From NCBI GenBank assembly GCA_027296055.1, contig JAPUJT010000033.1:48121-112120 (forward strand): DNA of 64,000 nucleotides. Direction: 5' to 3'. Positions 39,001 to 64,000 of this stretch are shown here, piece by piece. The position numbers were made by a program, and so were the translations under genes. This DNA is from Planctomycetota bacterium (GTDB taxonomy: Bacteria; Planctomycetota; JAPUJT01). Every line of letters starts with the position of its first letter. Positions within the stretch are counted from its first letter, which is position 1. The notes under the pieces are model-generated. The model was not told the DNA's origin. It did no database searches and saw nothing but the letters and a program-made list of their open reading frames with translations.

Positions 39001-42000
39001 TTCCGGTATCTTCCGGTGCGCCTTCAGCGTGGCGGCGAGCAGAAGCCATACGTCCGCGTCATCGCCCTTTACCTCCGCCAGCGTCCTGAGGATTCCAATG
39101 AACTTGTCGCCCTCGAGGGAGACCCGGAGAATATTCGCGCCCCGATTGCCGGAACTGAACAGGCCGTAAACGAAGCCCGGCTGCATCTCACGCAACTGAT
39201 CAAGGAGCTTCATCGCCTCGGGAATCTGATCGCGGTAAAAGGCGAGCCTCGCGGCCTGGGTGACGATTTCAAACCCGCGCCAGTGGTACTTGGCGCCCGC
39301 CTCGAGCCCCTTCCTGTAGATCTCCGCCGCGAGGTCATCGCGCTGGAGCTCGAGCAGGAAGTTGCCGAGCGACATGTAGGAGTTGGCGTCTTGCGGTGAG
39401 ACCATATCCATCCAGGATTCTCTGGATGCTTCGCCATCTGCTTCCATGTCGAGGAGGTTTCCCAGGACATAGTAGAGGGCGGTACGTTCCCCGGCTCCGG
39501 TGCGAAGCTCGATCTCCTTGCGTAGGTCGGCTATCGCCCCCTTCCGGTCACCCCGGGCTATGTGGACCTTTCGACCGAGCTGGTGGACCTCCGGGAGGTA
39601 GGGCGCTTCCTGGCGCAAGAGGACCAGGTGCTTCGCCGCCTCCTCGAACATCTCCTGCGAGTTGTAGAGCCGGGCCAGCTTCAGCCGCTTCTTGATGTTC
39701 CTCGGGTTTTCCTCCACCGCGGCGGCCAGGTCGGTGAGAATCTTTTCCGACTTACCCGTTCGCTGGTACAGGACCTTCAATCTCCGCTCGGATTCACGAA
39801 AGTAGTAATCGTTGTTGGTGGATGGAAAGTCCGTCAGGATCGACTCGTACTGCTCGATGGCATCTTCCCACTCCTCCCCCTTCTCGAGGGCGCGAGCGTA
39901 GTCCATTTTCTGCCAAGGGTACTTCGCCTTCTCCATGCCGAAGAGACGGAAGAGGGGGAGGATCTCCGCCTGCAGATCGTTGGCCTGGGCAAACCGCTGG
40001 ATCTCCCACGAGTAATGGCTTTGCCCGGGGTTTTCGCGGTAGTACCTCATCAGAGCGCGCACTCCCGCCTTCGGCTCCCCCTTCTTCGTGAACAGGTCCG
40101 CCATCGCGAAGTAGTTCTCTCGCGTGTCGAATCGGGTGGAGAATCCCGTCCGGGCGGCTCGCCCGTAAGACCGACGGGAGTACTGGAAGGAGCTTCCGGT
40201 CGGTCCCGCGTGGGTTGGCACGAGAGGGAGGCCTTTCCTCTCGCGGTACCGGGCTATATCGCTGTTCATTTCCTTCTTCAGGGAGATCATCTGCCGCTGC
40301 GCCTCGATCGCTTCGTCCAGCTCGCGCTCCTTCTCATGGAGGGTGGCGATGGCGGTCCAGAGGGCTACGGCCAGATCGGGTGTGCAGTGCTCCAGGGCCT
40401 CTCGATAGACGGCGATCGAATCCTCTACCTGATCTTCCTCCTCGAGGATTTCCGCCAGCTTGACGGTGGCCTCGAGGTAAGCCTTGCGGGCCTCCTCGCG
40501 CTGCTCCTCGTCCTCTCCCCCCATCGCGGGCAGGCTCTCCTCCATCTGGCTGCGGTATCGCTCCTGCGCCACTTCGGCGAGCTTTCCCTCCTTGTACGCC
40601 ACCTTGGCGTCGTTGGTGTAACCCCCCTCCCGGAGGGAGTCGTACGCCCGCATGAATTCCTTCCGCTTCTTGTAAATCAGGCCGAGGTTGCGGATCGAGC
40701 GCCGGGAAATGCCGCTCGCGTTGTGCCGGTAGTGCCACTCGTGAACGGGATTCTTCATCCGCGCTTTCGAGTCGGCCTGGGCGCGCAGGTAGAGCTCCTC
40801 GGCTTCATCGTACTTCTCGTTCTGGAAGTAGATGTCACCCACGAAGGTGAGGTTGAGGAAGTCGTCCCCTTGCTCGAGGATCTCATCGAGGGCCTGCTTC
40901 GATTGTCCGTCGCCTCCCATCTTGAAGGCCGAACGCGCCAGGGCGGCGAGAATGTCCCGCTCCGATGGGACCCACCGGTTCATCCGCCGTTCCCTCTTTT
41001 GATCCGTGACCACGAGATCGATCACGGCGTCGATCTGCGCCTTGGTGGCGTTGTCTCGTATGTAGAAGGGAATGGAGTTGCGAGTGTTCGTGCGTAGCTT
41101 CTTCTCCTCCTTTTCCGTCATCTCGTTCGGGTCCTCCCGCACTCGCTCGATGAGTGTCCGGTAGTGCCCGACTGCCTCCTCGTCCTGATCATCCGATGCC
41201 GCGCGCCTCGCCAGGAGGGCGACGAAGCGAGAGCTGTCCGGGAGCGATTCGGCCCCCTTCCGGAGGGTCTCCCCGGACTCCTCCTGCATCCCCGACTGGA
41301 CATAGAGCGCCGCCAGCTCGAGAGTCTCCTCTCTCGTGCGATCCTCCTTCGCCTGCAGGGCCTCGAGTCGCTCCTGACGGATGTCCGCGCGGCGCCCGTG
41401 GATGTTCTGGATCAGCTGCCAGATCTCCTCCTCCGGTTCCTTGGGCCGGACGTAGGTCTGGGGGTACCACCAGGTCTGAATCGCTTGCCAGATCTGGGTG
41501 AAGACGTCCTTGTCCCATTCCTTCTCCAGCATCCCACGATAGATCTCGAGGGCCTTGGCAGGCTGACTCAGCTCCCTCTCGTAAATCATTGCCAGGCTGA
41601 GCAGGGCCTCGAGGTTCATCGGAGTCTGGGCGATTTCCTCCTCCAGGATCTCGGCGAACTCTGCCAGGAGGCCGTGCTTCTGGAAGTAGTCTCTCGCCAG
41701 GCGAAAATTGCTGCGCTTCTTCGTGTTGGATCCGGAGTAATACCAGTATCCCCAGGATGAGTCGTAGATCAGCTCGTCCTTATCACCCCTCTTTTTCTTT
41801 TTCTTCTCCTCCTTCGATCCGAGGAGCCTTCGTCCGACATCGACCGCCTTCTCCTTCTGCTTCAGATCCATCCAGAGGGCGCCAAGCTCGTTGAGGGCCT
41901 TCCGGTGCGTCGGCTTGACCTCCAGCACCCTCTGGTAGGCGTCCGCCGACCTCTCTCGCTTTCCCATTTTTCTCAGGACGCGGGCCTTTTCGATCCATAG

Positions 42001-44778
42001 CGTCGGATCGGTCGGGGCCTTGGCGAGCAGGGTGTCGTAGCGAGCGAGTGCCTCCTCGGCCATCTGGTTCTCGCGCAGAAGCTCTGCTTCGGCGAGCCTG
42101 TCGCTCAGCGATGCCCAGGCCTCCGCCGCCTTGTCCCGGTTCCCCATCTTCGAGTGTGCCTTTCCTATCTCTTCGTAGGCGACATCTCGATGGGACCCCT
42201 TCAGGTTCAACGTCATCTCGTACACTTCGATCGCTTGCTCTTGCTCCTCCATCTCGATCAGGAGCCGCGCCTTCTGCATCAGGAGGGAGGGATCGCCCCT
42301 CTGGAACGGAATCACGCGATCGAGCATCTCGATCGCGCGAGGAAACTCGTAGGCGCGCAGGAAGAAGTCGGTGAGGAGAAGGGCCGCCTCGACATCGTAA
42401 GGATTCTCCTCGACCGTCTTCTCGAGCCCCAGGATTTCCTGCTCGAGCGTCCCACGGCTCCGATACAGCTCGAAGATCCTCTTGCGGACATCACGGCGAT
42501 CCTCGTCCTTCTTCGCCTCCGACAGAGCGATGTGAAGCTCCTCGAGGGCGGCCTTATCGTCCTGCTTGCTGGCCAGGACACCGGCGAGGTCCAGCCGGAT
42601 CTCGACGGGATCCGATGGGGACCTCTGCAGGGCCTGGCGGTAGTGCTCGATCGCATCGTCGGGGAGACCGAGCCGCTTGTACTCCTTGGCAACGTCCTTG
42701 TAGACGACGGGGTTGTCCGGCTGGGACCGGATCATCCGCTTCCACGTCTCGAACGCCTTCTCCCGATCCTCCCGCTTGAGATGGATCTCGGCGATCTTCT
42801 TGAAGATGGGCCTTTCCTTGCCTGGTCGAAGGGACAGGACGCGCTCGAAAGATTCGACCGAGGCGTCGAGGTCTCCTCCGGACAGATAAAGATCAGCGAG
42901 CCTCTCCACGACCCCGATCTCTTCCGGGATCCGCTCGAGGAGCTCCCGGTAGACGTCGATGGCCCGCGCGGTTTGCCGCGTACGGGTGAACGCCTCGCCG
43001 AGGATGAGGTAGGGAACCGGATCATCCGTCCCCTTCCTGGACTCCTCCGCTTCGATGAGAATGTCCGTCGCCTCGGCCGATTCGTGCAGGGATACGACGG
43101 TGGTGATAGCCTCGTCGCGGAGGGAATCGGTCTTCGCCAGGTCGGCCGCCTCGCGGGCCGCCTCGTACGCCGCCGCCGGATCGTCCAGGGCGCGGTGGAT
43201 CTCGGAGAGGAGGAGATAGAGTCTTGCCTCGCGAACGCCTTTCTCTCGAATTGCATCCGCGATCTCGAGGGCTTCCTCCTCGAACGCGTGGCCGAGGAGG
43301 ATCTCCGCGAGCGTCATCTCGGCCGCTTGACCGAGGGTCTTGATCTCCGACCACCTGGCGAGGGCCTCGTCCTTGCGGCCCAGGGAGTAGAGGTAGGACC
43401 CCAGAGCGACCCGATGGGACTTCTCCTTCGGGGCGATCTGGATCGCCAGCTCGTGGGATCGGATCGCGTCTTCCACAAGATCGAAGCGGGCGTACAGATC
43501 CGCGAGACGCAGGCATAGATTCGGATCCCGGACCTCTTCCGCCAGCAGGCTCTCCCACTGCAGCTTCGCCTGCGAGAACTTCTCCTCCCGGGCGAAGATC
43601 CGGCCGAGCTCGATGTAAAGGTCGACTTCCTCGGGGTGCCGGGCGATCAGGCGCTGGTACTCCTGAATCTGGGTTTCGGAATCTCCGATGTCCCGCAGGA
43701 GGGCGATGCGTCTCTTTCCGAGGTCCAGGTCGTCCGGGAAGATCCTCGTCGCCGCGCCGATCGCCTCGGCGGCGCGATCGACCTCCCCTTTCTCCTCCAG
43801 GACCATGGCGAGGAAGATGTGTGGATCGATGTCCTGTGGATTCGCCTCGATGCGCTTCCTGACTTCCTCTTCAAGCGAGTCGAGAGTCCCGCGCTCGCGA
43901 TGAACACGGACGATCCGACTCTCGATATCCGCCTTCATCCAGTTGCCGCGGCGAAGGAGTTGGGCCGCTCGCGTGTAATGATCCAGGGCCTCGTCGAAAT
44001 CCTTCCGCCTCTCGTGGATCCTTCCCATCTCCCTGAGGACGGCGCATCGTTTGCTGGAGTCATCCCGCGCGAGATCCAGAAGGGCGCGCCAGTCGCCGAG
44101 GGCCTCCTCCAGGAGTCCGCCCTCGGCCAGCGTCTCGGCCACTCCTTGACGGAGATAGAACGATTCCGGGTCGATCTCGATGATTCTGCGGTAGGCGGCC
44201 GCGGCCTCCCCTTTCTTCCCCTGCGCCAGATGGAGGTCGCCGATAGCTCGATAGAGTTTTCGAAGGCTCTTCTCGTCCTTGGCCTGCTCGGCCGCGTTCT
44301 CCAGGGTCTCCGCCGCTCGAAGGAATTCGCCCTGCTGGGTGTAGATCTCCCCGAGGAGGCCGAGGAGGTGACCGTTGGTCTCCGCAATCTGCTCGAGCTC
44401 CGCGACAGCTTCGACCAACCGATCGCCCCGCTGATAGAGCCGGGCGAGAATGAACCTGTAGCCAGGCTCGGAGGCGTTCTCCCGGACGAGCGACTGGAAC
44501 TCCTCCACGAGAGCGTCGATGGTGTTTTCTTCCGCGGCGAACTGCAGGACCTTGGTCAAGGCGAGATCGTGATACGGATTGCGCTCCAGCATCGCGCGGT
44601 ACTTCTCCTTCACCCGTTTCCGCCGAGCTCTCGACTTGGTTCTCTCGTCGTTTCCGGAGGCGGCGGCCCCCCCGTCCTGTATCGAAGCGGGAGCCGCTTC
44701 AGCAGGAGAAGAGCTGTACTCGAAATGGAGAATGAAAGCAGACAGGAGAAGGAGGGGGTAGGCCACCCGTCGAACCAT
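36040..44778 (-). CDS. Giant TPR-repeat exported protein (about 2,912 aa)
   Basis: ATG 44778 (GGGGAG 9 bases upstream) gives a signal peptide 'MVRRVAYPLLLLSAFILHFEYSSSPAEA', so the protein is exported or anchored at its N terminus. After a low-complexity basic linker (about 30-60), dozens of TPR-type helical pairs run to the end (for example 'AYRRIIEIDPESFYLRQGVAETLAEGGLLEEALGDWRALL' and 'YEKDKDNQSLQQQVATRLAKEGQYEEALPML'). Some non-TPR inserts have Tyr/Ser-rich loops (YDSSWGYWYYSGSNTKKRS, PMSFSPYMYQAPP). No catalytic domain visible. One of the largest genes expected in such a genome. It opens the MoxR operon. Confidence 0.88.
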   Translation of the reverse strand: MVRRVAYPLLLLSAFILHFEYSSSPAEAAPASIQDGGAAASGNDERTKSRARRKRVKEKYRAMLERNPYHDLALTKVLQFAAEENTIDALVEEFQSLVRENASEPGYRFILARLYQRGDRLVEAVAELEQIAETNGHLLGLLGEIYTQQGEFLRAAETLENAAEQAKDEKSLRKLYRAIGDLHLAQGKKGEAAAAYRRIIEIDPESFYLRQGVAETLAEGGLLEEALGDWRALLDLARDDSSKRCAVLREMGRIHERRKDFDEALDHYTRAAQLLRRGNWMKADIESRIVRVHRERGTLDSLEEEVRKRIEANPQDIDPHIFLAMVLEEKGEVDRAAEAIGAATRIFPDDLDLGKRRIALLRDIGDSETQIQEYQRLIARHPEEVDLYIELGRIFAREEKFSQAKLQWESLLAEEVRDPNLCLRLADLYARFDLVEDAIRSHELAIQIAPKEKSHRVALGSYLYSLGRKDEALARWSEIKTLGQAAEMTLAEILLGHAFEEEALEIADAIREKGVREARLYLLLSEIHRALDDPAAAYEAAREAADLAKTDSLRDEAITTVVSLHESAEATDILIEAEESRKGTDDPVPYLILGEAFTRTRQTARAIDVYRELLERIPEEIGVVERLADLYLSGGDLDASVESFERVLSLRPGKERPIFKKIAEIHLKREDREKAFETWKRMIRSQPDNPVVYKDVAKEYKRLGLPDDAIEHYRQALQRSPSDPVEIRLDLAGVLASKQDDKAALEELHIALSEAKKDEDRRDVRKRIFELYRSRGTLEQEILGLEKTVEENPYDVEAALLLTDFFLRAYEFPRAIEMLDRVIPFQRGDPSLLMQKARLLIEMEEQEQAIEVYEMTLNLKGSHRDVAYEEIGKAHSKMGNRDKAAEAWASLSDRLAEAELLRENQMAEEALARYDTLLAKAPTDPTLWIEKARVLRKMGKRERSADAYQRVLEVKPTHRKALNELGALWMDLKQKEKAVDVGRRLLGSKEEKKKKKRGDKDELIYDSSWGYWYYSGSNTKKRSNFRLARDYFQKHGLLAEFAEILEEEIAQTPMNLEALLSLAMIYERELSQPAKALEIYRGMLEKEWDKDVFTQIWQAIQTWWYPQTYVRPKEPEEEIWQLIQNIHGRRADIRQERLEALQAKEDRTREETLELAALYVQSGMQEESGETLRKGAESLPDSSRFVALLARRAASDDQDEEAVGHYRTLIERVREDPNEMTEKEEKKLRTNTRNSIPFYIRDNATKAQIDAVIDLVVTDQKRERRMNRWVPSERDILAALARSAFKMGGDGQSKQALDEILEQGDDFLNLTFVGDIYFQNEKYDEAEELYLRAQADSKARMKNPVHEWHYRHNASGISRRSIRNLGLIYKKRKEFMRAYDSLREGGYTNDAKVAYKEGKLAEVAQERYRSQMEESLPAMGGEDEEQREEARKAYLEATVKLAEILEEEDQVEDSIAVYREALEHCTPDLAVALWTAIATLHEKERELDEAIEAQRQMISLKKEMNSDIARYRERKGLPLVPTHAGPTGSSFQYSRRSYGRAARTGFSTRFDTRENYFAMADLFTKKGEPKAGVRALMRYYRENPGQSHYSWEIQRFAQANDLQAEILPLFRLFGMEKAKYPWQKMDYARALEKGEEWEDAIEQYESILTDFPSTNNDYYFRESERRLKVLYQRTGKSEKILTDLAAAVEENPRNIKKRLKLARLYNSQEMFEEAAKHLVLLRQEAPYLPEVHQLGRKVHIARGDRKGAIADLRKEIELRTGAGERTALYYVLGNLLDMEADGEASRESWMDMVSPQDANSYMSLGNFLLELQRDDLAAEIYRKGLEAGAKYHWRGFEIVTQAARLAFYRDQIPEAMKLLDQLREMQPGFVYGLFSSGNRGANILRVSLEGDKFIGILRTLAEVKGDDADVWLLLAATLKAHRKIPEMMEVLNRALEARPHEQRILKMLMDEYQGMGRMEEAIAWGERWLSTLPADTQSFTASSPMSFSPYMYQAPPTGKKGGYSTLAHLYRRAGDLEKAKEYILKLEDKTKPHTYMQLADAFDRARFHEEAVEAMRTFIEKAPDRSSQHLIRLSHMLKQIGESSEALVVLGEALEIATGDRQEHQVYQAMETIYKEEKNLDVLLYQLKAKLVEDPKALPTLLFLAKAYRSRGELDQAKSYLQKAAEEHPSSKEPLQAVSEIYQEDRDWAKAIETVEHIIEIFPNEKKSRSSELARLYMKIGEKDKAVEYWKAGQRDLQSYSSQQTLGRTFASNKLYDEAVEAYREAIRLAPTGRSMDSIRTSLASALLESGDLKGALQTYLEAFGGKTTPASLISSEAILRYLLADDTAGELLDEARSAAAADRTANQVLLLGLERLFADDLKEASRIFRIRVEEAPYDKAAWGGLYLSARRSGDLDSALKACFGWKETEERDEGKVSSLLWKIGDLQQRRGQSEEAVASWRRAGRTAKYPLYEYQNRYYSSSPSGRSTLIDRLTRYELDDRAMGEIERDVALGRLSHRGALTKAAEILRRSGDETKAFEYEMEASFINGSLTTRLRRTVKDPGRQEAILDPIKEQLELQPANQRLRKLLASIYDQIEQPQLAIDLYREAYEKDKDNQSLQQQVATRLAKEGQYEEALPMLEELWKKGIRSLRSSSSMISYFVGGSTVVTQSYNQGRWRSSRKAPGNLLLLVYEALGKDEKAADLEEDILRGYRGRTHAYFIEAARLLAGHELYEEALRWIERADRVAPDELDDEKALERQQTSIRTLKMRYLKKLDRLAEAEPIAREQIASLEEQLSKKPWNVNTYSSIANLHANFTKDWDAAVSAATTNAEGLPFSSTGWSSLGWIQLRKGDAEAAATAFEKSQSLLDLFGSKDDGALLLGRALSAHHRGKADEASRLLERAEELIGPDLHKRQDEEFKEDIDAIRAYAK

Positions 44779-45150
44779 ACGACCGATCTCCCCTGGCTCG
44801 AACAATGAACTCTGGCACGCGTATCCGACCGCGTCCGCGAGTAGATCCCGGCGCCCGGGCCCGTCATGAGCCATTCGTGAGCCGCAAAAGAAGGACCAAG
44901 TCACTCGCAAGCGCCGATCCTGGCCTCCTGGCCGGCTCGGCAAGTCGGGTTGTTATCGCCGGAACTTCCGGCATTCTTGGAGATTAGGTAGGGGTCCCCC
45001 CGACGATGCCGAACCGCGATCGGACCTGGATCTCAATCGCGCCCGATGGTCCGGTGCCCGAAAAAAAGTAATGATCTATGGTTTTCAGACGGTAACAATT
45101 TCTGGCACTGTCTTACTTTGAGCGCACGTCCGTGAAGGTTCGATGAAAGG
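44779..45150. other. 372-bp region upstream of the TPR operon
   Basis: No gene found. Contains a small GCCGGAA-C-TTCCGGC palindrome (44958-44972) and an AT-rich tract around 45060-45115 (GAAAAAAAGTAATGATC and ACGGTAACAATTTC), the likely place for the promoter of the TPR operon on the minus strand. No convincing -35/-10 pair was assigned. Confidence 0.5.
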
Positions 45151-53196: not shown

Positions 53197-55860
53197 CTAG
53201 CGGACCGGGACTGCGCCTTCTTTTTCGGTCTCGGCGGCCTCTTCGGAGGGGCGCCGTCCGAAGGGGGCGAAGACGGGACTCTTGTTCTTCTCGTAATAGA
53301 CCTTCCCGTTCACCATCGCCAGGGTCACGAAGGAGCGGTAGTCCAGGGGATGGCCGTCGAGGAGGATGATGTCCGCGTCCTTGCCCGGCTCGATGCTCCC
53401 GACCCGGTCGGCCACTCCCAGGGCTCTAGCGGCCGTGATCGTGATCGACTCCAGGGCGGTCTGCTCGTCGAGGCCGCGCCCCACGGCGAATGCGGCGTCG
53501 ATGGGCAGGGTGACCATGTCTTGACCTGCGATTCCGCCGGTGGATAGAGACGCGTTCGGGGAGAGGATGGCGAATGGGACACCCGCCTTGCGGAGGAGCG
53601 CGGGCATCCGGAGATTCGACCCGCTGGGCCTGTCGACCGTCTTGTCGGCATGGGCCTTTCGGCGCGGCGTGATGACGAGACAGACATCCCGCTTGGAGAT
53701 CTCCTCCGCCACGATCCAGGATTCATGCGCCCCTTCCAGGACAAGGCGGATCCCGAACTCATCCGCTAGCTCGAGGGCGGCGAGAATGTCGTCCGCCGAG
53801 CTGGCCGCGATGCGGGCCGGGACCTCGCCCCGGATCAGGGGCAGGAGGGCCGCCGCTCTTCCGCCCTGCCGCGGAGGCTTCCCGGCCTTCCCCTTCGCCT
53901 TTTCCTCCTTCAGCTTCCTCGCGTAGTCCACAGCCTTTCTCAGAAGTTCCTTCAGGGCGAACTTGGCGGAGGCACTCGCCCCCGAGTAGCGGATCTGAAC
54001 GCAGGCGGGCTCGCGCACCAGCATCCCCCCCAGGTCTTCCTCCGTCATCTTGATGACCGCCGACGTGCCCTGGATGAGACCGGAGCCCCCCGATCGGCTC
54101 GTGATAAAGGCCGTCGTGATCCCGGACGCGAGGGCCAGGTGGACGGAGAAGGCGTACGGGTCGAGGGCATCGGCTAGCTTGCCGCCTCCCGGTCCGCGCC
54201 GTCGGATGCCCAGGCCGCGACATCGCGCCGCCACGAATCCGGGGCAGGCGACGAGGCCCTTGGCATCGATCACCTTCGCCCCCTCGGGGACCGGCAAGTC
54301 CGAGCCGACCGATTGGATCTTCCCGTCCTCGATGATGATCGTGCCACGGCGGATCTTGCCGTTCGTGATCGTGAGGATGTCCGCACCGACGATGGCGACG
54401 GGAGGGTCCTTCTTCTTCTTCTCCTCCTCTTTCGCCAGATCCTTCTTTCCCTTGTCTTTCCCTGCCGGTTTTGACTCGGACTCGCCCTTCTTGCCGTCGG
54501 GCTTCGGTTTGGCCGGAGGGGTCTTCTTGGCCAGACGGGGTGTCTTATCTTCGAGGAGGGCGGTCGTGTCCGGCCGCTCGCCGAACCGATGGACCACCTT
54601 TCCCTGGAGGATGACCTGGTCGATCCGTGTCGCCCCATGGAACGGATCGCCACTCAGGATCACGAGGTTCGCATCCTTGCCCTGCTCGATGCTGCCGACC
54701 CTCCTGTCCAGACCCAGGATCTTGGCGGGAGTGAGCGTTACCGCCTCCAGAGCATCCTGGCGGCGCATCCCGTGCTTGACCATCTGGGCGGCATAGAGGA
54801 GGAAGTTCTGTATTCCCTCCTCGCTGTCAGACCCCGGGATGAGGGCCACGTCGATACCGGCGGCCGACAGGATCGCCGGCGGACAGACGCGGTTTCGAGT
54901 GTTCCGCTCGTAGCTGATAAGGGCAGGCAGGATCACGGCGACGTTCTTGTCCTCGAGCAGCTCGACGGCCTGCCACATCCCCGGCGTGGCGTAGAGGGTA
55001 GGGCGCGTTTTGTAAGGATCCTTCCGGTACTCCTCGAGGATGGGGAAGAGATGGGCGGCCGCGGCCGTGTCCTGACATCGGATGATCAACGGCAGATTGC
55101 CTTCCAGCACGTCAACGAGGGGCTGGACCTTAGGGTCGGGCTTCGGGGGCTCGTCCTCTTTCTTCTTGGCCACTCTCCGTTTCTTCTTGGGAGCCGCCGT
55201 CTTCTCCTTCTTCTTCGCCTCTTGCTTCTTTTTCTCTTCCGCTTCCTTCTTCTTCTTGCGAGCCTCGATCGCCTTCTTGCCTCGGGCTAGCTCGCCCCGG
55301 AGAGTCGATTTACTCGAGGTGGTAGCGTCTATGCTCATGAAGAGCGCGGAGGATTCCCGCAGAGTCACATCTTGTCGCGGGCCTCTGCGGGCGCTGATGG
55401 TCACGGACTGACCCATGACGCCTCCGCCGGACGGCATGAGGTTCAAAGTGGTCACTCCCCCCGCGAGAAGACGTTCGTACGTGTTCCGGTAGGCATCCAG
55501 CTCATCCAGCACGCGGTGATGTGGACTCTTCCGGGTGCCTCTGGATGATCGGGAGAGGCCGATGCGTGAGGCGACGAGAACGAGGCCGGGGATCACCGTT
55601 CCCTCCCCCACGTCGATCAGCTCGGCCCCCTCGGGAATGGGAAGGGCCCTGCCCACCTCGGCGATCTTGCCATTCCGGATGATGATCACTCCATCCCGGA
55701 TCGACCCCTGCGAGATCGTCTCGACGCGGGCCGCCGCGATCGCGATCACCTTGTCCTTCTCCTCCGCAACCCCCTGGATCGGCAGCGAGATGAGCCCGAT
55801 CAGGGCGGCGCCCAGGAGGGCGATGCACAGCTGCAGAGAGATGTTTCTCCGGGTTCTCAC
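53197..55860 (-). CDS. Secreted double amidohydrolase-like protein, catalytic residues lost
   Basis: 887 aa. Signal peptide (ISLQLCIALLGAALIGLISLPIQG). Two COG1228-type amidohydrolase-like domains (about 35-420 and 515-870), each with the N-terminal beta-sandwich ('GVIIIRNGKIAEVG', 'GTIIIEDGKIQSVG') and the end signature 'VGSIEQGKDANLVILSGDPF' and 'VGSIEPGKDADIILLDGHPL'. But the HxH motif is missing (VIPGLVLVASRIG; ACPGFVAARCRG), and the later metal histidines and Asp are replaced (IAASSADDI, LEGAHE, ILSPNAS). Lys-rich linkers lie inside and between (about 195-245, 455-515). Last gene of the array. Confidence 0.85.
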   Translation of the reverse strand: MRTRRNISLQLCIALLGAALIGLISLPIQGVAEEKDKVIAIAAARVETISQGSIRDGVIIIRNGKIAEVGRALPIPEGAELIDVGEGTVIPGLVLVASRIGLSRSSRGTRKSPHHRVLDELDAYRNTYERLLAGGVTTLNLMPSGGGVMGQSVTISARRGPRQDVTLRESSALFMSIDATTSSKSTLRGELARGKKAIEARKKKKEAEEKKKQEAKKKEKTAAPKKKRRVAKKKEDEPPKPDPKVQPLVDVLEGNLPLIIRCQDTAAAAHLFPILEEYRKDPYKTRPTLYATPGMWQAVELLEDKNVAVILPALISYERNTRNRVCPPAILSAAGIDVALIPGSDSEEGIQNFLLYAAQMVKHGMRRQDALEAVTLTPAKILGLDRRVGSIEQGKDANLVILSGDPFHGATRIDQVILQGKVVHRFGERPDTTALLEDKTPRLAKKTPPAKPKPDGKKGESESKPAGKDKGKKDLAKEEEKKKKDPPVAIVGADILTITNGKIRRGTIIIEDGKIQSVGSDLPVPEGAKVIDAKGLVACPGFVAARCRGLGIRRRGPGGGKLADALDPYAFSVHLALASGITTAFITSRSGGSGLIQGTSAVIKMTEEDLGGMLVREPACVQIRYSGASASAKFALKELLRKAVDYARKLKEEKAKGKAGKPPRQGGRAAALLPLIRGEVPARIAASSADDILAALELADEFGIRLVLEGAHESWIVAEEISKRDVCLVITPRRKAHADKTVDRPSGSNLRMPALLRKAGVPFAILSPNASLSTGGIAGQDMVTLPIDAAFAVGRGLDEQTALESITITAARALGVADRVGSIEPGKDADIILLDGHPLDYRSFVTLAMVNGKVYYEKNKSPVFAPFGRRPSEEAAETEKEGAVPVR

Positions 55861-57197
55861 CGTGTCGGTATCGTTTCAATCAGGGACGCGCCTTCCGAAG
55901 GCTCCCAGTCGGCGCGACGATAGACGAGACGTCCTTTGATGAACACGGCGTCGACAGACGATCTCGGATCGAGAGGGTGGCCCCCTCGAATCACGATGTC
56001 CGCCTCCTTACCCACCTCGATACTTCCGACCCGGTCGGCGATTCCGACTGCCTCGGCCCCCCGGATGGTGACGGCGGCGATCGCCGCCCGCTCGTCCAGC
56101 CCGTATCGGACCGCCATCGCCGCCTGGACGAACAGATCTTCCTGGGGGACGACGGGGGCGTCGGTATTGATGGAAAGGTTCTCCACGCCCGCCTTGTAGT
56201 ATTCCGCCCCGAGACCGATGAACGTGCCCTTGGCAGCAAAGCGGAAATCGATCTGCCGCGGCCCGAGGTTGATGTTCATTCCCCGCTTCGCCGCCTCGTG
56301 GGCCACACGGTAGCCGTTGAAGGTGGCGTGCGAGATGATGGTCCAGAGCTTGTACCGGTCATTGAACATACGTATCGTCGACATGACGTCCCGTGCGCCG
56401 GCGGTGTGAATGATGACCGGGTACTCCTTCCTGAAGAGGCCCTTGAGTTGCTCGAGTTCCGGACGGAACTCGGGGGCGTCCTCGACGTTCCCCGCCTCGT
56501 AGGCATCCCAGGCGTCGGTATAATCCTTCCCCTCATCGAGCAGGTGGGTCAGCCCCCAGGACATCCCCATCCGGGTGAGGCCCAGGTCGCCCCCTAGTCG
56601 CTCGGGGTTGTACCCCTGGGCGACCTTCATCGCCCCCGGCGAACGGACGACGAGATCTTCCAACGTGTCCCCCGCCGTCTTGATCAGAGCGCCAAACCCG
56701 GAGATGTTCGTCCCGCTCCCGGGGATCACGAGGATCGTCGTGACGCCTCCCGTCAGAGCGTCCTTCAGTTCCGGACTCCTGGGATCCAGAGCCTCCAGGA
56801 TGCGAAGGTCGGGGTTGGTCGGGAGCGCCATGTCGTTGATGTCCCGTCCGGCCGTCCCGATGTGTGAGTGCAGATCGATCATGCCGGGGAGGACCCACTG
56901 ATCCGTGGCATCGATGAAGACCGTGTCTCCCGGGGCGGCCACGTGGGTGCCCACCGCGGCGATCATGCCGTCCCGGATGAGGATGAGACCGTTGTCGATC
57001 ACTCCTTTCGTCACCGTCAGGATCTTCAGGGCTCGGATCCCTAGAGGGGGACCTCCCTGTTCCCCGGCGAGAGGTGTTCGCTTCGTTTCCTCATCGGCAA
57101 ACGCATTCACTCCCGGAGTCGCGCTTCCGAGGGCGATCAGGGAGATCAGGCCCAGGGCCAGCGCGCTGCGGCCGAACCGCCAGTGCTCAGTCTTCAT
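55857..57197 (-). CDS. Secreted amidohydrolase, full metal-binding set (imidazolonepropionase-like)
   Basis: 446 aa from ATG 57197; longer frame begins at 57233. Signal peptide (RSALALGLISLIALGSATPGVNA). The only member of this array with all metal ligands: HSH in 'VLPGMIDLHSHIG' (110-112), a Lys in 'AMKVAQGYNPER' (191), His in 'VIIHTAGARD' (264), His in 'WTIISHATFNG' (290), and Asp in 'LSINTDAPVV' (346). COG1228 family, distantly like imidazolonepropionase and prolidase-type enzymes. Substrate unknown. Overlaps its upstream neighbour by 11 bases and its downstream one by 4. Confidence 0.9.
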   Translation of the reverse strand: MKTEHWRFGRSALALGLISLIALGSATPGVNAFADEETKRTPLAGEQGGPPLGIRALKILTVTKGVIDNGLILIRDGMIAAVGTHVAAPGDTVFIDATDQWVLPGMIDLHSHIGTAGRDINDMALPTNPDLRILEALDPRSPELKDALTGGVTTILVIPGSGTNISGFGALIKTAGDTLEDLVVRSPGAMKVAQGYNPERLGGDLGLTRMGMSWGLTHLLDEGKDYTDAWDAYEAGNVEDAPEFRPELEQLKGLFRKEYPVIIHTAGARDVMSTIRMFNDRYKLWTIISHATFNGYRVAHEAAKRGMNINLGPRQIDFRFAAKGTFIGLGAEYYKAGVENLSINTDAPVVPQEDLFVQAAMAVRYGLDERAAIAAVTIRGAEAVGIADRVGSIEVGKEADIVIRGGHPLDPRSSVDAVFIKGRLVYRRADWEPSEGASLIETIPTR

Positions 57198-59547
57198 GAA
57201 CCAACTCTCCATCCAGGAATACTTTCTGCACACGAGCCCTCAGGTCCATCGGATCTGCAGAGAAGACCACCAGGTCGGCGTCCTTGCCCACCTCGATGCT
57301 TCCCACTCGGGAATCGATGCCCGCCATTCTCGCCGGACCCAGGGTCAGCGCGCGGAGCGCCGTCGCTTCGTCCAGGCCGTGGCGGACCGAGTACGTGGCC
57401 GAGAGCGGCAGGGCCCAGGACCCCGTCGCCGCTTCCGACTGGAACGCCAGGGGTACGCCGGATTCGGCCAGGCGGAGAGGAAGCGAGATCCATTCACCAT
57501 CCACTCGCTGAAGAGTGACCGGGCCCACCGCCACGGAGACCCCGCGTTTCCGGATCTCCTCCGTCAGGACGTGGGATCCCTCCGCGCCGATGAAGACCAG
57601 GCGGACGTCAAATTCGTCGACGAAGACTTCAAGAGCGGCGAGGATTTCCGAGGGACGAACCACTCTCACGAAGGCGGGGATCTCGCCCTTGAGGAGGCCG
57701 CGCAGCGGCTCGAGCGTCTCGTCCTCCTTCACCTCCTTGGCCTTGTCGTCGTCCTTCTTCCGAGGGGCATCGCGCTTCTCGCCGTACTCCTTGACCTTCT
57801 TGAGCAGCGACCGGATCGTCCACGGTGTTGCGGGACTCGCGCCACTCGCCAGGTTGAATCGGATCCCCGCGGGGTCAGCAATGATTCGTGATTCGAGATC
57901 GGCCCCTCCACACTTCAGGGCCACCGCTTGCCCTCCGATCGTGCCCGACCCGCCCGGTATCACGACGACGGTCGTGATACCGACAGCGAGGGCCGCATCG
58001 AACCCCGGGTCGTCGGGAACGATCGCCGCCGATGCTTTGATCTGTCCGCCAGCGGGACCGGCGAGCGGCGAGGCCGGCGGAAGCCATACGGCCTCCTCTC
58101 CGGGCAACCCGAGCCTCGACTGGAGGTCGATGAAGCCCGGAACGACGACCGAATCGGGCAGATCGATGACCTTGGCTCCGTCGGGAATCGGCACCTGCTC
58201 TCCCACGGCCCGGATCTTGCCCCCCTCCATCAGGATCGTGCCGTTCCGGATCTCACCGTGAGAAACCGTGAGGATCCGGCCCGCCTTGATGGCGGTCCAT
58301 CCCTTTCCTCCGAACTTGATGAGCCTCCGCGCTCTGGGCTTCGACTTGTAGACCACGTCTCCGCCGGCAATCACGACCTGGGGGAGCGACCGTGTCTCGA
58401 AGGGTCCGCCCGAAAGGATCACCAGATCAGCGTCTTTGCCCGCCTCGATGCTGCCGATCCGATCCTCGACGCCGAGGATCTTGGCGGGTCCGAGCGTGAT
58501 CGCGTGTAGCGCCTGCGCCGAAGTGAGGCCGGCCGCGTGGGCCCTTGCTGCCAGGACGAGAAGATCGGGAAGCTCGGCATCGGCCGGCGGAATCAGGGCT
58601 ATCGGCACCCCGGCCTTTGCGAGCACTGCCGCGGTCGCCGGGTCGGCCCGTACCGACTCCGGATCGGGCTGGGTGTATTCGGGCGGCCTCGCGCCGGGCC
58701 AGTAAGGGGACTCGATCGCCGCGCCGGAGCCGGCCTCGGCAATCATCTCGGCCAGACGAATCGCCTCGGCGCCCCCCTGGATCACGATGCGGGCGTCGTA
58801 TTCCTGCGCCAGCTCGAGCACTCTTCTGATATCCCGGGCGGCCTGACAGCGGACGAACAGGGGCGCCTTCCCGTCCCGGACGGCGGCCAGCGGACTGTCC
58901 TCTTCGGCTTCCCTCAGGGCCTTCCGGAGCAAGAAGAACGATCCGAGACGCGTCGAAGGGAGCTGGCGCTCCGCCGGTCGGATCGGGTCCGTAGGGGAAG
59001 GAGGCAGCGGAGGCTCGAACAAGGATGGGGGTGACTCCGGGGCCTCGCCGAGGTTTACCTGGATCCCGACGGTGGCGCGCAGGATTCTGTTTGCGGCATC
59101 CCCCCCGGCGAGACGCACCACGGAACCTTGGCCCGAGAGGAGTCGCCTCTTGCCAGGAGAAATGTAAGCGGCGGTGACCCCACCGGCGAGCACCGAGTCC
59201 CTCCGGGCGAAGAAATCGAACCCGTCGATCGCCTGGACGTCGGGGCTCAGCGATTCGAGGGGGTCGGCCCCCCCTTCGGCGAGCGTCGAGTAGGCGGCCA
59301 CGAGACCGGGGATCACCGTCCCCTCCGGAAAGCGTAGTTCCTTCGCCCCCGCAGGAATCTCGAGCCCCTGGCCCACCGCTCGGATCTTGCCGTCCTCGAT
59401 CAGGATCACGCCGTCCGTTATCGGATCGCCGGAGACGGTAAGGATTGTCCCGGCTACGATCGCGATGATCGGCTTCTTCGCTTCATCCTCGGCGTGGGCG
59501 AGGGTGGCCGCGATGGCGAGGACGATGCTCAGTGGAAAGGCTTTCAC
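57187..59547 (-). CDS. Secreted double amidohydrolase-like protein, catalytic residues lost
   Basis: 786 aa from GTG 59547 (MKAFPLSIVLAIAATLAHA, signal peptide); a TTG at 59565 is an alternative. Two domains (about 25-415 and 425-785). Fold markers kept: 'GVILIEDGKIRAVG', 'IGSIEAGKDADLVILSGGPF', 'GTILMEGGKIRAVG', 'VGSIEVGKDADLVVFSADPM'. Metal ligands lost in both: 'VIPGLVAAYSTLA' and 'VVPGFIDLQSRLG' replace the HxH, 'FVRCQAARD' and 'FVRVVRPSE' replace the strand-5 His, 'IPPADAE' and 'FQSEAAT' replace the Asp region. Confidence 0.85.
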   Translation of the reverse strand: MKAFPLSIVLAIAATLAHAEDEAKKPIIAIVAGTILTVSGDPITDGVILIEDGKIRAVGQGLEIPAGAKELRFPEGTVIPGLVAAYSTLAEGGADPLESLSPDVQAIDGFDFFARRDSVLAGGVTAAYISPGKRRLLSGQGSVVRLAGGDAANRILRATVGIQVNLGEAPESPPSLFEPPLPPSPTDPIRPAERQLPSTRLGSFFLLRKALREAEEDSPLAAVRDGKAPLFVRCQAARDIRRVLELAQEYDARIVIQGGAEAIRLAEMIAEAGSGAAIESPYWPGARPPEYTQPDPESVRADPATAAVLAKAGVPIALIPPADAELPDLLVLAARAHAAGLTSAQALHAITLGPAKILGVEDRIGSIEAGKDADLVILSGGPFETRSLPQVVIAGGDVVYKSKPRARRLIKFGGKGWTAIKAGRILTVSHGEIRNGTILMEGGKIRAVGEQVPIPDGAKVIDLPDSVVVPGFIDLQSRLGLPGEEAVWLPPASPLAGPAGGQIKASAAIVPDDPGFDAALAVGITTVVVIPGGSGTIGGQAVALKCGGADLESRIIADPAGIRFNLASGASPATPWTIRSLLKKVKEYGEKRDAPRKKDDDKAKEVKEDETLEPLRGLLKGEIPAFVRVVRPSEILAALEVFVDEFDVRLVFIGAEGSHVLTEEIRKRGVSVAVGPVTLQRVDGEWISLPLRLAESGVPLAFQSEAATGSWALPLSATYSVRHGLDEATALRALTLGPARMAGIDSRVGSIEVGKDADLVVFSADPMDLRARVQKVFLDGELVHED

Positions 59548-59548
59548 G

Positions 59549-60790
59549 TTATCGTACTGCCTCAAGCTTTTCGAGAGTCTTGTCCTTCGATCTTTCGTAG
59601 ACGACCTCGCCTTCGATCATCACCGTGTCCACCCAGGTTCGGATGTCGAGGGGGTCTCCCGTCAGGATCAACAGGTTGGCGTCCTTGCCCTTCTCCAGGC
59701 TGCCCACCCGATCTGCGATTCCGATGATCTGCGCGGGGGCGAGAGTGATCGCCCTCAGGGCCTCCTCCCGGGTGAGGCCGTGCCGCACAGCCTTGGCCGC
59801 CTGGAACCAGAGGAAACGGGTCCCGAGAGTCGACGACGTGCTCTGGAGCGCGAAGTTGATGCCCGCATCTCTCAGTACGGTCGGGTTGGCGTGCGGAATT
59901 TCCTCTCCCGTCTCCTGGTCGCGCTCCCAGTGGATGAGCCTCGGATCCACGATGGCGGGAAGCTTGGCCTTCGCCAGCACCTCCGCCGCCTTGTAGCCGT
60001 CCGAACCGAGAACGGGAATGATACGAATGCCGAACTCCTTGGCGAGGGCCACGGCCCGGATGACGTCGGAGGCAGTCTGGCAATAGACGAAGGCCGGAAA
60101 CCTTCCTTCCAGCAAGTCGGCCAGGGCCCTCTTCTTGTCACCGACCAGATCTCGCGCTGTCTTCCTGTCCTCCTCTTTCTTCTCGGCTTCCTGCTTCCTT
60201 GTCTCCGCAAGCTCGGTCTTCATGTCACGCAGGACCTTGCGAAGCTCGCCTATATGGGACATGCGGGAGCGCCCTCCCGTCGGCCTCAGGGAGATCTTGA
60301 GTCCCACGTCCGACTTGACCGCCATCTCTTCGACCGTCGATCCCCACGGCTTGAGAATCATCGTCTGGCCGCCGATCAGGGTGTCGTTTCCGGGCGTGAT
60401 CAGTATCGTGGTGACCCCGTCCTTGACCGCGTCCTCGAAGTAAGAACTCCGAGGGTCGATCGAATCGAACACGGAGACGAAGGGGACGTTGGGGACTCGC
60501 TCGTTGGGTCGATCCAGGCCTCGGGAGGTATGAGGCTCCACGAGACCAGGCATCACCACGCGGTCCGCAGCGTCGATGACCCGGGCATCCCAGGGGATCT
60601 CCACGTCCTTCCCTATCGCCTCGATCCTCCCGTCCTTGATCACGATCACGCCCCCGCGAATCTCATCCCCGGCGATGGGAATGATGCGACCCGCCTTGAT
60701 GGCGACGACCTCGTCGGACAGGACGGGGGCCGAGGCCAGGGCGACCAGAACGCCCGCAAGAAGCGGAAGAGATGGGCGGTTCATCGTCAC
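59549..60790 (-). CDS. Secreted amidohydrolase-like protein, most catalytic residues lost
   Basis: 413 aa. Signal peptide (LPLLAGVLVALASAPVLS). One domain; 'VMPGLVEPHTSRG' keeps one His of HxH, and 'GLKISLRP' keeps the Lys, but 'FVYCQTASD' replaces the strand-5 His, 'PVLGSDGYK' the strand-6 His and 'LQSTSST' the Asp. The end signature 'VGSLEKGKDANLLILTGDPL' is intact. A charged helix (AETRKQEAEKKEEDRKTARD) is inserted before the barrel. Ends one base before the GTG of the next gene. Confidence 0.87.
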   Translation of the reverse strand: MTMNRPSLPLLAGVLVALASAPVLSDEVVAIKAGRIIPIAGDEIRGGVIVIKDGRIEAIGKDVEIPWDARVIDAADRVVMPGLVEPHTSRGLDRPNERVPNVPFVSVFDSIDPRSSYFEDAVKDGVTTILITPGNDTLIGGQTMILKPWGSTVEEMAVKSDVGLKISLRPTGGRSRMSHIGELRKVLRDMKTELAETRKQEAEKKEEDRKTARDLVGDKKRALADLLEGRFPAFVYCQTASDVIRAVALAKEFGIRIIPVLGSDGYKAAEVLAKAKLPAIVDPRLIHWERDQETGEEIPHANPTVLRDAGINFALQSTSSTLGTRFLWFQAAKAVRHGLTREEALRAITLAPAQIIGIADRVGSLEKGKDANLLILTGDPLDIRTWVDTVMIEGEVVYERSKDKTLEKLEAVR

Positions 60791-60808
60791 GAATCCTCCT
60801 GTGCGACC

Positions 60809-62110
60809 CTAAGGCCTTCGGTTCATCGATGCGGGTTCCGGAGACGAGTCGGGATACGTCTCTCCCGCCGCCGTGGGGCCGGCGCTCGCCGACTTTGTCG
60901 TGGATAGAAATTCGACCCTACCGTCAATCATCACGAAGCTAACGCGCGAGGTCACCTGGAGAGGGTCGCCATCGAAGGCGACGAGGTCGGCGTCCTTTCC
61001 CTTCTCCAGCGTGCCTATCCGATCCGAGACTCCGAGAATCTCCGCAGCATCCGCCGTCACGGCGCGCAGGGCTGCCGTGGCGGGGAGACCATACCTGTAG
61101 GCCAGGGCCGCGGCATCCTGTGGGCCTGCCGTGCCGGGGTCGGACCATGTAGCGAGGGCGAGCCGGACGCCTGCCCGATGGAGCTGCGCGGCGGAATCGA
61201 CCGCCACGTGACCGAATTCCGCCACCAATCGATTGTGGGGATCCACCGTCACCCGGAGGATCACGGACACCTTCGCCCTGGCGATATCCGATGCGTTACG
61301 GTACGCCTCCCCCGCGTCATCGATGATGAGGATGAATCCGTAATCCGAGGCCAGCTTCAGGGCGGAGACGATATCGGAAGATCTCCGAGCCGTGAACCGC
61401 AGCGGGATCTCCCCTCTCAGGGCCTCGGCGAGACCCAGGGCGTCCTTCTCCTTGCCCGCCTCGAAGAGCGCTCGCCGGATGATCGATGTCACGCCCATCC
61501 GATTCGTCGGGCGTCGATAGTAAAAGTTGTGGGGCCTGCCGCTCCGGGGGCTGCGATTCCCCCTGGTCGGGTCCCTCCCCAGGGTCGCCTGGATCGCCAC
61601 CCGCTCTGACAGCCAACGATTCTCGCCGGATGTCTTGCATACCGCCCCTGCACCGGAGATGACATTGCGCGTTCCCGGGGTAACGTACGCGGCGGTCACG
61701 CCGGCGCGGAGCGCACGCTGGAAGCCCGGGTGACTCAGATCGATCGAGTCGGCAGCCCTCACGTCCGGGGTGACCTCCTTGTATTCCTCGTTCTCGCCGC
61801 CGGTCATGCCGTATGTCGCGCGGGCGTCGATCAGGCCCGGCGTGAGGATCGCCTCGCCGAGATCGATCACCGTCGCCCCCTCCGGGATCGGGAGTCCCAC
61901 CCCGACCGCCTCGATCTTGTCGCCGCGGATCACGACCATGCCGTTCTCGATCGGCGGCCCCGAGATGGGGAAGACCTGAGCAGCCTTGATCACCTGCACC
62001 GTTTCTTCCGACGAGGCCCGCGGAAGCGTCCCGACCCCCCCGAGGCCGATGAAGATCACCAGGGCCAGGGAGGCGACCCCCAGATCGCGGATGGCCTTGG
62101 TTCGCCTCAT
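60809..62110 (-). CDS. Secreted amidohydrolase-like protein, catalytic residues lost
   Basis: 433 aa. Signal/anchor near the N terminus (GVASLALVIFIGLGGVGTLPRAS). Fold markers: 'GMVVIRGDKIEAVG', 'ILTPGLIDARATYGMTG' (HxH gone), 'FTARRSSDI', 'IIDDAGEAY', 'LATWSDPG' (metal residues gone), and 'IGTLEKGKDADLVAFDGDPL'. Overlaps the upstream gene by 4 bases and is 18 bases from the next. Confidence 0.86.
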   Translation of the reverse strand: MRRTKAIRDLGVASLALVIFIGLGGVGTLPRASSEETVQVIKAAQVFPISGPPIENGMVVIRGDKIEAVGVGLPIPEGATVIDLGEAILTPGLIDARATYGMTGGENEEYKEVTPDVRAADSIDLSHPGFQRALRAGVTAAYVTPGTRNVISGAGAVCKTSGENRWLSERVAIQATLGRDPTRGNRSPRSGRPHNFYYRRPTNRMGVTSIIRRALFEAGKEKDALGLAEALRGEIPLRFTARRSSDIVSALKLASDYGFILIIDDAGEAYRNASDIARAKVSVILRVTVDPHNRLVAEFGHVAVDSAAQLHRAGVRLALATWSDPGTAGPQDAAALAYRYGLPATAALRAVTADAAEILGVSDRIGTLEKGKDADLVAFDGDPLQVTSRVSFVMIDGRVEFLSTTKSASAGPTAAGETYPDSSPEPASMNRRP

Positions 62111-63279
62111 GGCTTCTCCTTCGCCTTCTTCCGCCTGTAGACGCTCTCTCCGTCGAGGAACACCTCTTCGACGCGACTGGAGAGATCCAGCGGATCGCCG
62201 TCCATGATGAGAAGGTCAGCCGACTTGCCCGCCTCCAGGCTTCCCAGCTGATTCGAAACGCCCGCCAGCTCGGCGGCGTTGATCGTCAGCGCCTGCAGGG
62301 CGGCCCTCCGGCTCATTCCATGGCGCACGGCGAGCGCCGCCGTGACGAGGAGCGAATCCCGCGTGCCGATCGGGGCGTCGGAGCCGAAGGCGAGCTTCAC
62401 TCCCTTGCCTTCGAGAGCGCCCGCCGTCTCCAGGAGCTCTCGGGGATCGGTCAGCTGTAGGGGTCCGATCACACAGGCCACTCCGCTCTTCAGGATCTCT
62501 TCCGCAAGGTCTCTTCCCCAGGACGCGTGCACCAGGGCCCCCCGTAGGCGGAACTCCTTGATCACACGGAGAGCCGTGGCAATCTCGCCACGGCTGGTCG
62601 CGTCGACGAAGACCGGCCAACGCCCCGCCAGGGCTTCTCCCAGCTCGTCGGACCGCTCGTTCGAGGCTGCCTTCTCGCGGAAGAGAGCCACGGCGCCGGC
62701 CCGGGAAGTTGGTCTTCGATCGCGCCGGAGGGATCCGGAGGAGAAGGAGAGCTTCAGCCCGGCCTCGTCGGTGAGCACTCGCGCACCGCCGTCTCCGCTG
62801 GACGGCTTGATCACGGCGCAGACGCCGGCGATCGTGTTGTCCCCTCTCGGGGCCAGAAGGTGGCAGGTGATTCCGTCCCGTAGGGCGGCTTCGAGAGAAG
62901 GATGATAGGGATCCAGGGCGTCCGCGGCGCGCACTCCCGGTGTCGTTGCGGTCACCGTCTCGGCGAGATCAAGATAGCCGCCGATATGGGAGTGCCCGTC
63001 AACGAGACCCGGCATGATCACGCTCTTCCCCAGATTCCGGATCTCGACTCCGTCGGGAAGATCGAGCTTCTCTCCGATGGCTCGGATCTTTCCGTTCTCG
63101 ATCCAGATCATTCCATTCTCGATCGGCTCTCCCGAAACCGGAAAGATCCGGGCCGCCTGCAGACAGAAGGCGGCGGCGTCCATGGACACCGGTGGCTCGT
63201 CTGCCGCTCCCGGGTGGATGGTGGCAACGGCCAGCGCCAGCCCCGAGATCGCCGTGAGGATGATCGACTGACGTCTCAC
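62107..63279 (-). CDS. Secreted amidohydrolase-like protein, partial metal set
   Basis: 390 aa. Signal peptide (ILTAISGLALAVATIHPGAA). Keeps HSH in 'VIMPGLVDGHSHIG' (96-98), Lys in 'GLKLSFSS' (176), His in 'GALVHASWG' (251) and Asp in 'LAFGSDAPIG' (301), but the strand-5 His is Asp226 (VFVDATS). So it is the second most complete domain of the array and might still bind one metal. 'LGSLEAGKSADLLIMDGDPL' marks the end. It starts 1 base before the partial gene stop. Confidence 0.87.
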   Translation of the reverse strand: MRRQSIILTAISGLALAVATIHPGAADEPPVSMDAAAFCLQAARIFPVSGEPIENGMIWIENGKIRAIGEKLDLPDGVEIRNLGKSVIMPGLVDGHSHIGGYLDLAETVTATTPGVRAADALDPYHPSLEAALRDGITCHLLAPRGDNTIAGVCAVIKPSSGDGGARVLTDEAGLKLSFSSGSLRRDRRPTSRAGAVALFREKAASNERSDELGEALAGRWPVFVDATSRGEIATALRVIKEFRLRGALVHASWGRDLAEEILKSGVACVIGPLQLTDPRELLETAGALEGKGVKLAFGSDAPIGTRDSLLVTAALAVRHGMSRRAALQALTINAAELAGVSNQLGSLEAGKSADLLIMDGDPLDLSSRVEEVFLDGESVYRRKKAKEKP

Positions 63280-63280
63280 G

Positions 63281-64000
63281 TCAAAAATCCCTCCTGCGGG
63301 GTGCGGGGGCGGTCACGCGGATTACCTTCTCCCCGCGGATCACATGGGTGACTCTCGACAGGCTCTTCAGGGGATCTCCGTCCAGGATCACGAGGTCGGC
63401 ATCCTTCCCCTCGGTGATGCTCCCGATGCGGTCCGAGACGCCCAGAATTTCCGCCGGTACGATCGTGATCGCTTTCAGGGCCGCCTCGCGATCCATGCCA
63501 TGACGGACCGCCAGGCAGGCCTGGTACCTGAGGTACCTGGAGCCGAGAGCCCCTCCTCCCCCGCTGCCGATCGCCACCTTGATCCCCGATGCTGTGAGCA
63601 GCCCTGCCTTCTCGGCCTTCGACCGGGCGGCGTCCACGCCCTGCAGCGGTGAGGTCACGATCGGTCCCACGATCACGGAGATCTCGGACTCGACGAGGGA
63701 AGCGGCGAGAGTCATCGCATCCGCCCCTCCCTCCAGGACCCAGTTCAGGTCGAATTCGTCGGCGAGGTGGAGGGCGTTGCGAATCGAGTCGTGCCACTCC
63801 GTCTGCAGGCGGACGGGAATCTCTCCCGCCAGGGCGCGCACCAAGACCTCCTGATCCGGCTTCTTGGAGGGCTTCCTGGGCTTCTTGGGCTTCTTGGGGG
63901 GGGCCGGCTTCTTTTCCTTGGACTTTCCAGCCTTGTCCTTCTTGTCATCCGGCTTCTTCTTTTCGACCTTCTTCCTCGCTTCCTCCTTCTTGTCGAACTC
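63281..64000 (-). CDS. Amidohydrolase-like protein, C-terminal part (runs off the window)
   Basis: Open to the right edge; 239 visible residues. A Lys/Pro-rich stretch (about the first 50 visible residues, AAG/CCC-rich, KKPKK-like) precedes a degenerate barrel: 'VRLQTEWHDSI' where a HAH-type motif is expected, 'VLEGGADAM' and 'IGSGGGG' for the strand-6 and strand-8 sites. End signature 'IGSITEGKDADLVILDGDPL' is intact. Same insertion position of the basic linker as in the 887-aa protein, so probably a close relative. First known gene of this array; upstream extent unknown. Confidence 0.85.
   Translation of the reverse strand, partial: EFDKKEEARKKVEKKKPDDKKDKAGKSKEKKPAPPKKPKKPRKPSKKPDQEVLVRALAGEIPVRLQTEWHDSIRNALHLADEFDLNWVLEGGADAMTLAASLVESEISVIVGPIVTSPLQGVDAARSKAEKAGLLTASGIKVAIGSGGGGALGSRYLRYQACLAVRHGMDREAALKAITIVPAEILGVSDRIGSITEGKDADLVILDGDPLKSLSRVTHVIRGEKVIRVTAPAPRRRDF

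Follow-up and report, generated by a model that had tools for sequence, protein, structure and literature searches.

Why would a bacterium keep nine domains of one hydrolase superfamily side by side when nearly all of them lack part or all of the metal site on which catalysis depends? The question is raised by seven open reading frames, all on the minus strand, at 53197-64000 of a 64,000-nucleotide stretch of planctomycetotal DNA (hereafter the window, meaning that whole stretch).

Nine domains in seven genes

Amidohydro_1 or Amidohydro_3 (PF01979/PF07969) matched above the curated Pfam cut-off in all seven proteins, and the 887-aa and 792-aa proteins each contained two matching stretches, which brings the total to nine domains. 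A whole-genome profile scan also placed nine matches on this contig. Adjacent reading frames overlap or lie at most 20 bases apart, so the initial annotation of seven adjacent, coupled genes with nine domains of one superfamily was borne out. We number the domains D1 to D9 in transcription order, from g7 (D1), g6 (D2), g5 (D3) and g4 (D4) through g3 (D5-D6) and g2 (D7) to g1 (D8-D9).

The first gene, g7 (63281..64000), encodes only the C-terminal 239 aa of D1, because the contig (C134) stops at the window edge. This product groups with D1 of other genomes, and its HxH motif cannot be judged since the N-terminal half is missing; a search of the same genome with a relative's D1 returned no separate piece for that half. 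Signal-peptide-like N-termini are found in D2 (g6, 62107..63279, 390 aa), D3 (g5, 60809..62110, 433 aa) and D4 (g4, 59549..60790, 413 aa). The 792-aa product of g3 (57187..59565) joins D5 (about 58309-59565) to D6 (about 57190-58317), g2 (55857..57233) encodes D7, and the 887-aa product of g1 (53197..55860) joins D8 (about 54550-55860) to D9 (about 53254-54465). By a signal-peptide heuristic, the likely starts of g3 and g2 are near 59547 and 57197. No NCBIfam equivalog, including HutI TIGR01224, reached its cut-off among the best 25 matches for six of the proteins and all 20 for the last. Lysine-rich runs are present in D1 and D8, and elsewhere in the window a 2967-aa reading frame occupies 36040-44943 (minus strand).

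One complete metal site in the window

The complete catalytic set of an amidohydrolase (HxH, strand-5 His, strand-6 His and strand-8 Asp) is found in D7 and in none of the other domains. D7 has H122 and H124 in an HSH motif (56862-56870), the strand-4 Lys203 (56625-56627), H276 (56406-56408), H302 (56328-56330) and D358 (56160-56162). D2 keeps HSH, H251 and D301, with Asp226 replacing the strand-5 His. In D4, the first of the four metal histidines (H87) alone remains, and all four are gone from D3, D5, D6, D8 and D9; D1, assessable at the later ligand histidines only, lacks those. Locating the ligands thus confirmed that only 55857-57197 retains HSH, two further His and Asp, and that 62107-63279 retains most of them, Asp226 being its sole exception. 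The accompanying claim that the other seven lack both the HxH and the later His holds for D3, D5, D6, D8 and D9, and has to be qualified for D4, which has H87, and for D1, whose HxH is lost at the contig end.

The array in related genomes

With D4 as query, 43 of 59 relative genomes gave matches at E <= 0.001, and in many of these such domains followed one another in long series; a contig search with D5-D6 yielded one locus, a weak match. Twenty loci were retrieved, 18 of them whole or partial arrays and two a pair or triad, and 11 of the 18 had all nine domains in the order D1-D2-D3-D4-(D5-D6)-D7-D8-D9. Position profiles built from these first loci were then used to classify 47 more loci found through D4 and 20 found through D7, the latter coming from 17 of the 45 genomes with a D7 but no D4 match at threshold and from second contigs of three genomes. 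All 67 were collinear, 42 of them with all nine domains, and the classification margin fell below 15 bits in 4 of 533 domains (2 of 369 and 2 of 164, the latter read by eye). Altogether, 86 of 86 loci (80 genomes, counted by handle; 681 domains) were collinear and on one strand, and 54 had all nine domains; positions in the first 19, window included, were set by order, and the independent test of order comprises the 67 only. Partial loci, which lie mostly at contig ends, are a weaker test of order, and the sample is not random, every locus having been reached by way of D4 or D7. Far from being a local oddity, the nine-domain set is conserved as a unit: the initial annotation had proposed looking in related genomes for this gene order and these residue losses, and both recur in the phylum.

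Two genomes from a single genus carry D1-D6 on one contig and D7-D9 on another (L090/L144 in G177; L094/L145 in G148), and in G177 both halves are well inside their contigs. Joint transcription is therefore not essential. At two loci (L106 and L114), D1 is divided between two reading frames by a frameshift or an assembly error.

Among 392 genomes drawn from the phylum, a D4 orthologue (E <= 1e-60) was present in 61, a D7 orthologue (E <= 1e-62) in 101 and either in 106; about a quarter of the sampled species of the phylum carry the array. The organism names among the best 120 of 586, 2325 and 2200 protein matches, most of them nameless, were confined to Planctomycetes/Planctomycetota, Phycisphaerae/Phycisphaerales and Sedimentisphaerales. 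In 20 flanking stretches from 12 genomes and the window, five gene families were common to at least three genomes, the most widely shared occurring in six at varying distance from the array, and no neighbor gene was consistently shared.

The positions are also recognizable by descent. In a tree of 158 domains, D2 to D9 each formed one clade by position (support 95-100), and D1 was weak. In a FastTree of 690 rows, D7, D4, D5 and D9 were strongly supported clades, and D3 and D8 were each set apart from all other rows by a single, weakly supported branch. In that tree D2, D6 and D1 required 2, 2 and 4 changes, and its strongly supported branches force 2 changes for D6 and at least 3 for D1.

Ligand loss by position

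All five ligands were present in 93 of 93 assessable D7 copies (95 rows, two cut by contig ends). At the eight other positions, 586 domains (all four His assessable in 548) include a single complete one, the D2 of L083. None of the 514 domains at D1, D3-D6, D8 and D9 had all five ligands (480 judgeable at all four His). At D2, where 1 of 72 was complete, a further copy (L062) retains four His and is truncated ahead of the Asp, and two (L133, L134) are one His short. These complete or nearly complete copies occur in families f77, f4 and f51, and a single enzyme per array is therefore not universal; the D2 losses were repeated, with 6-10 changes per ligand on the larger tree. In family f85 (L085, L086) the D7 site at first seemed to be lost, but this was a misalignment: HTH, H, H and D can be read in the sequences, and ligands were called with position profiles thereafter. 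The 54 complete loci contain one D7 copy in 44 cases, two in 5, three in 3, four in 1 and five in 1, and this range of copy number is a poor fit to a fixed stoichiometry.

Several replacements are characteristic of their position. The strand-6 His of D1 is Gly in 51 of 56 rows, and the second His of HxH is present in 35 of 60 D6 rows. Across 63 D4 rows, the first His is retained in 48, the strand-5 position is Tyr in 34 and the strand-6 position is Leu in 51. An alignment of 48 close relatives has H87, K165, S167, R184, C237 and Q330 of D4 invariant.

Selection and the fate of the old site

Median dN/dS was 0.080-0.165 over all positions and 0.10-0.17 at the eight degenerate ones; it reached 0.21-0.37 in one sister pair, and several other pairs were saturated. 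The initial annotation had named dN/dS near 1 as the sign of simple decay, and the values are far below 1 at every position.

To see what selection preserves, we ranked the metal-site columns, six in number (the strand-4 Lys plus five ligands) or five where one was gapped, by conservation among all columns of their own position. The mean percentile was 98 in D7 and 49, 38, 40, 60, 34, 44, 15 and 16 in D1, D2, D3, D4, D5, D6, D8 and D9, respectively, with no excess conservation of these columns outside D7. Compared with random columns, the site is eroded in D8 and D9 (P 0.0008 and 0.0012), and D1-D6 are indistinguishable from random. Compared with columns conserved in D7, D2, D3 and D5 are also low (P 0.003-0.012), and D1, D4 and D6 show no erosion beyond chance. 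Conservation of the whole domain is 0.474 in D9, close to the 0.500 of D7, which means that whatever selection maintains, in D8 and D9 at least, is not the old site. D4 appears to be a different case, as its first His, strand-4 Lys and strand-5 position stand at the 81st-86th percentile; judging from these residues, its pocket may have been reused, and D4 may itself bind or convert something.

The annotation had also allowed that metal ligands might have moved to other positions. Columns with His or Cys in at least 60% of rows recover the four His of D7, each in 93 of 93 copies. Relocated His or Cys ligands can be set aside in D1, D2, D3, D5 and D6, five of the eight degenerate positions, which have no such column; D4 has three (two His and one Cys), and D8 and D9 have one His each. 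In D1, D6 and D8 of the array loci, the TRMG helix is separated from strand 5 by a long, charged segment (median 35-45% K/R/E/D), whose median length is 121, 203 and 94 residues, respectively, versus 55 in D7.

Fold, fusions and export

The TIM barrel and beta-sandwich of the amidohydrolase superfamily are predicted to be present, and in two models the fold is retained in D4 and in D5-D6. The view that fold outlived the ligands thus stands for the three of eight degenerate domains modeled. The D5-D6 model has a pTM of 0.65, and the arrangement of its two domains is for that reason not established.

D5 and D6 form one polypeptide in 75 of 75 loci with both. Other fusions join D1 to D2 (9 of 68 loci), D2 to D3 (3 of 71) and D8 to D9 (1 of 64, the window only). 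Single fusions of D3 to D4 (of 77; L085) and D4 to D5 (of 76; L114) were set aside, as both loci contain N; N was tallied for just nine loci, and L088, one of the nine loci with a D1-D2 fusion, also has 10 N. D7 was never fused to D6 (0 of 69), D8 (0 of 70) or another D7 (0 of 22). Fusions between pseudo-domains hint at contact and are not proof of it. The 1-2, 5-6 and 8-9 fusions had suggested five dimers in register, an idea dropped on account of a 1-2-3 fusion in three f66 loci (L095, L098, L146).

That the domains are secreted, as first proposed, is in keeping with N-terminal export signals predicted by a home-made heuristic in the first loci. Signal-peptide-like N-termini were scored for 13/16 D1, 13/16 D2, 14/17 D3, 16/16 D4, 16/17 D5, 17/20 D7 and 15/15 D8, with D9 weakest at 8/14 and the internal D6 at 3/17.

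Simpler forms

The genome of the window also encodes an active-pseudo fusion (L010:9400-11967, contig C96) and an adjacent active-pseudo gene pair (L011:7416-10011, contig C163), whose domains belong to none of the array positions in the 158-row tree and branch close to D7 and 3ooq. Among ten other loci inspected, many were pairs (L030, L031) or pseudo-active-pseudo triads. Some triads are single reading frames of about 1500 aa (L151:2964-7682, L153:2351-6961, L154:4276-8724), others are split over neighboring frames (L150, L152, L156, L157), and L155 has one intact domain, alone. The degenerate-intact-degenerate triad might represent a step from pairs towards the nine-domain array.

What the array may be

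Our preferred reading, to which we give a probability of roughly 0.6, is that the nine paralogous, predicted exported domains form one hetero-oligomeric envelope complex, with D7 as the hydrolase and the other eight as structural or substrate-binding subunits. It builds on the nine domains and their fixed order, the loss of ligands by position, purifying selection and the D5-D6 fusion, together with the modeled fold and predicted export; from these we infer the complex, its compartment, its activity and its substrate. The idea in the initial annotation, of binding or scaffold roles around one active envelope enzyme, is supported in part. A homo-oligomeric metallohydrolase of the 3ooq type may have been duplicated repeatedly, its duplicates specializing into subunits of one assembly. 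Catalysis would have been kept throughout by the D7 lineage only, now present as one to five intact tandem copies, and the loss of ligands in D2 would have been late and repeated. Within the exported hetero-oligomer, D7 might hydrolyze an amide or peptide-type substrate, while the eight pseudoenzymes would form the assembly and perhaps also a substrate channel. An amide or peptide bond is the best guess because the nearest solved families are COG1228-type amidohydrolases, dipeptidases and carboxypeptidases. A more ambitious version, in which the array is an envelope machine whose paralogous subunits, nine or more and all obligate, share one fold, with one metal hydrolase surrounded by eight dedicated pseudoenzymes and the whole inherited as an ordered unit across the phylum, is tentative, and we put it a little short of even odds.

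The same complex might also have arisen by a neutral ratchet, its pseudo-subunits gaining nothing beyond being required for assembly once a homo-oligomer had been duplicated. Pairs, triads and the nine-domain array do form a graded series, and no lineage other than that of D7 has preserved the site throughout. Against it, neutral models by themselves leave unexplained the persistence of one set of nine positions with hardly any further loss or gain, and only D7 varies in copy number; we consider this origin somewhat unlikely. Its weight overlaps with that of the preferred reading, because the two share one architecture, and adaptive and neutral reasons for a complex are indistinguishable here.

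It is less probable still that the degenerate domains are separate exported binding proteins, holding ligands in remodeled barrels that are delivered to or sensed for D7, with no stable complex. The stable, position-specific substitutions in D1, D6 and D4 and the invariant D4 residues would suit such proteins, but D8 and D9 conserve few of their parts less well than the old site, and the ordered set with its fixed D5-D6 fusion stays together across families. Purifying selection at every position would equally be expected of new enzymes using non-canonical residues in a nine-step or nine-substrate pathway, in favor of which D4 can be cited, with H, K, R and C in its pocket region and three conserved His/Cys columns. 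Such a pathway seems doubtful, given the lack of conserved His/Cys columns in D1, D2, D3, D5 and D6, the single ones in D8 and D9, the absence of excess conservation in metal-site columns outside D7 and the flanks without a constant neighbor. Simple decay of a tandem duplication array into pseudogenes would account for lost ligands in eight of nine domains and for the repeated losses in D2, but we set it aside as very improbable on the low dN/dS and conserved order across families, to which the long open frames and the intact predicted fold of the three modeled degenerate domains can be added.

Comparison with known systems

The findings suggest that many "amidohydrolase family" annotations in this phylum denote non-hydrolases. 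The array shares its fold, the C-terminal GSIExGKDADL-type motif and the D7 ligand set with COG1228/imidazolonepropionase-like proteins such as the 3mtw carboxypeptidase, the 2qs8 Xaa-Pro dipeptidase and ochratoxin hydrolases. 3ooq, the Thermotoga maritima amidohydrolase of gene TM0814, which is not known to have an assigned function, has an intact metal site, in contrast to the eight altered copies in the array. We know of no array of pseudo-paralogues beside it, and our literature search found no paper naming 3OOQ or TM0814. That search, with most subscription papers outside its reach, found, among the titles listed, none on a fixed nine-position set with eight pseudoenzymes.

The pseudo-dihydroorotase pDHO is a single pseudoenzyme that serves a non-homologous enzyme in the cytosol, whereas the array has eight pseudo-paralogues beside a homologous enzyme and is predicted to be exported. 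According to a report on the Pseudomonas aeruginosa ATCase-pDHO complex, the inactive dihydroorotase homologue is required for the activity of its complex (PMC7053772), so that an enzyme-pseudoenzyme heteromer in the amidohydrolase fold, such as we infer for the array, is already known in kind. CRMP/dihydropyrimidinase-related proteins were among the weak PDB sequence matches to D7. These proteins have the amidohydrolase fold and form non-enzymatic oligomers; they differ from the array in being eukaryotic and cytosolic, with few paralogues and no operon.

If its products assemble, the array would be an unusually large bacterial pseudoenzyme ensemble, with a graded series of pairs, triads and nine in one phylum. 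It could then serve as a test of what pseudoenzymes do and of how a homo-oligomeric enzyme becomes a many-subunit heteromer, with position-by-position ancestry. The 20S proteasome and CCT are heteromeric rings of paralogues with many fixed positions, the proteasome being only partly catalytic. Their folds are unrelated to that of the array, and their assembly is demonstrated where ours is proposed, but the subunit diversity of such an envelope complex would be comparable to that of the proteasome or CCT.
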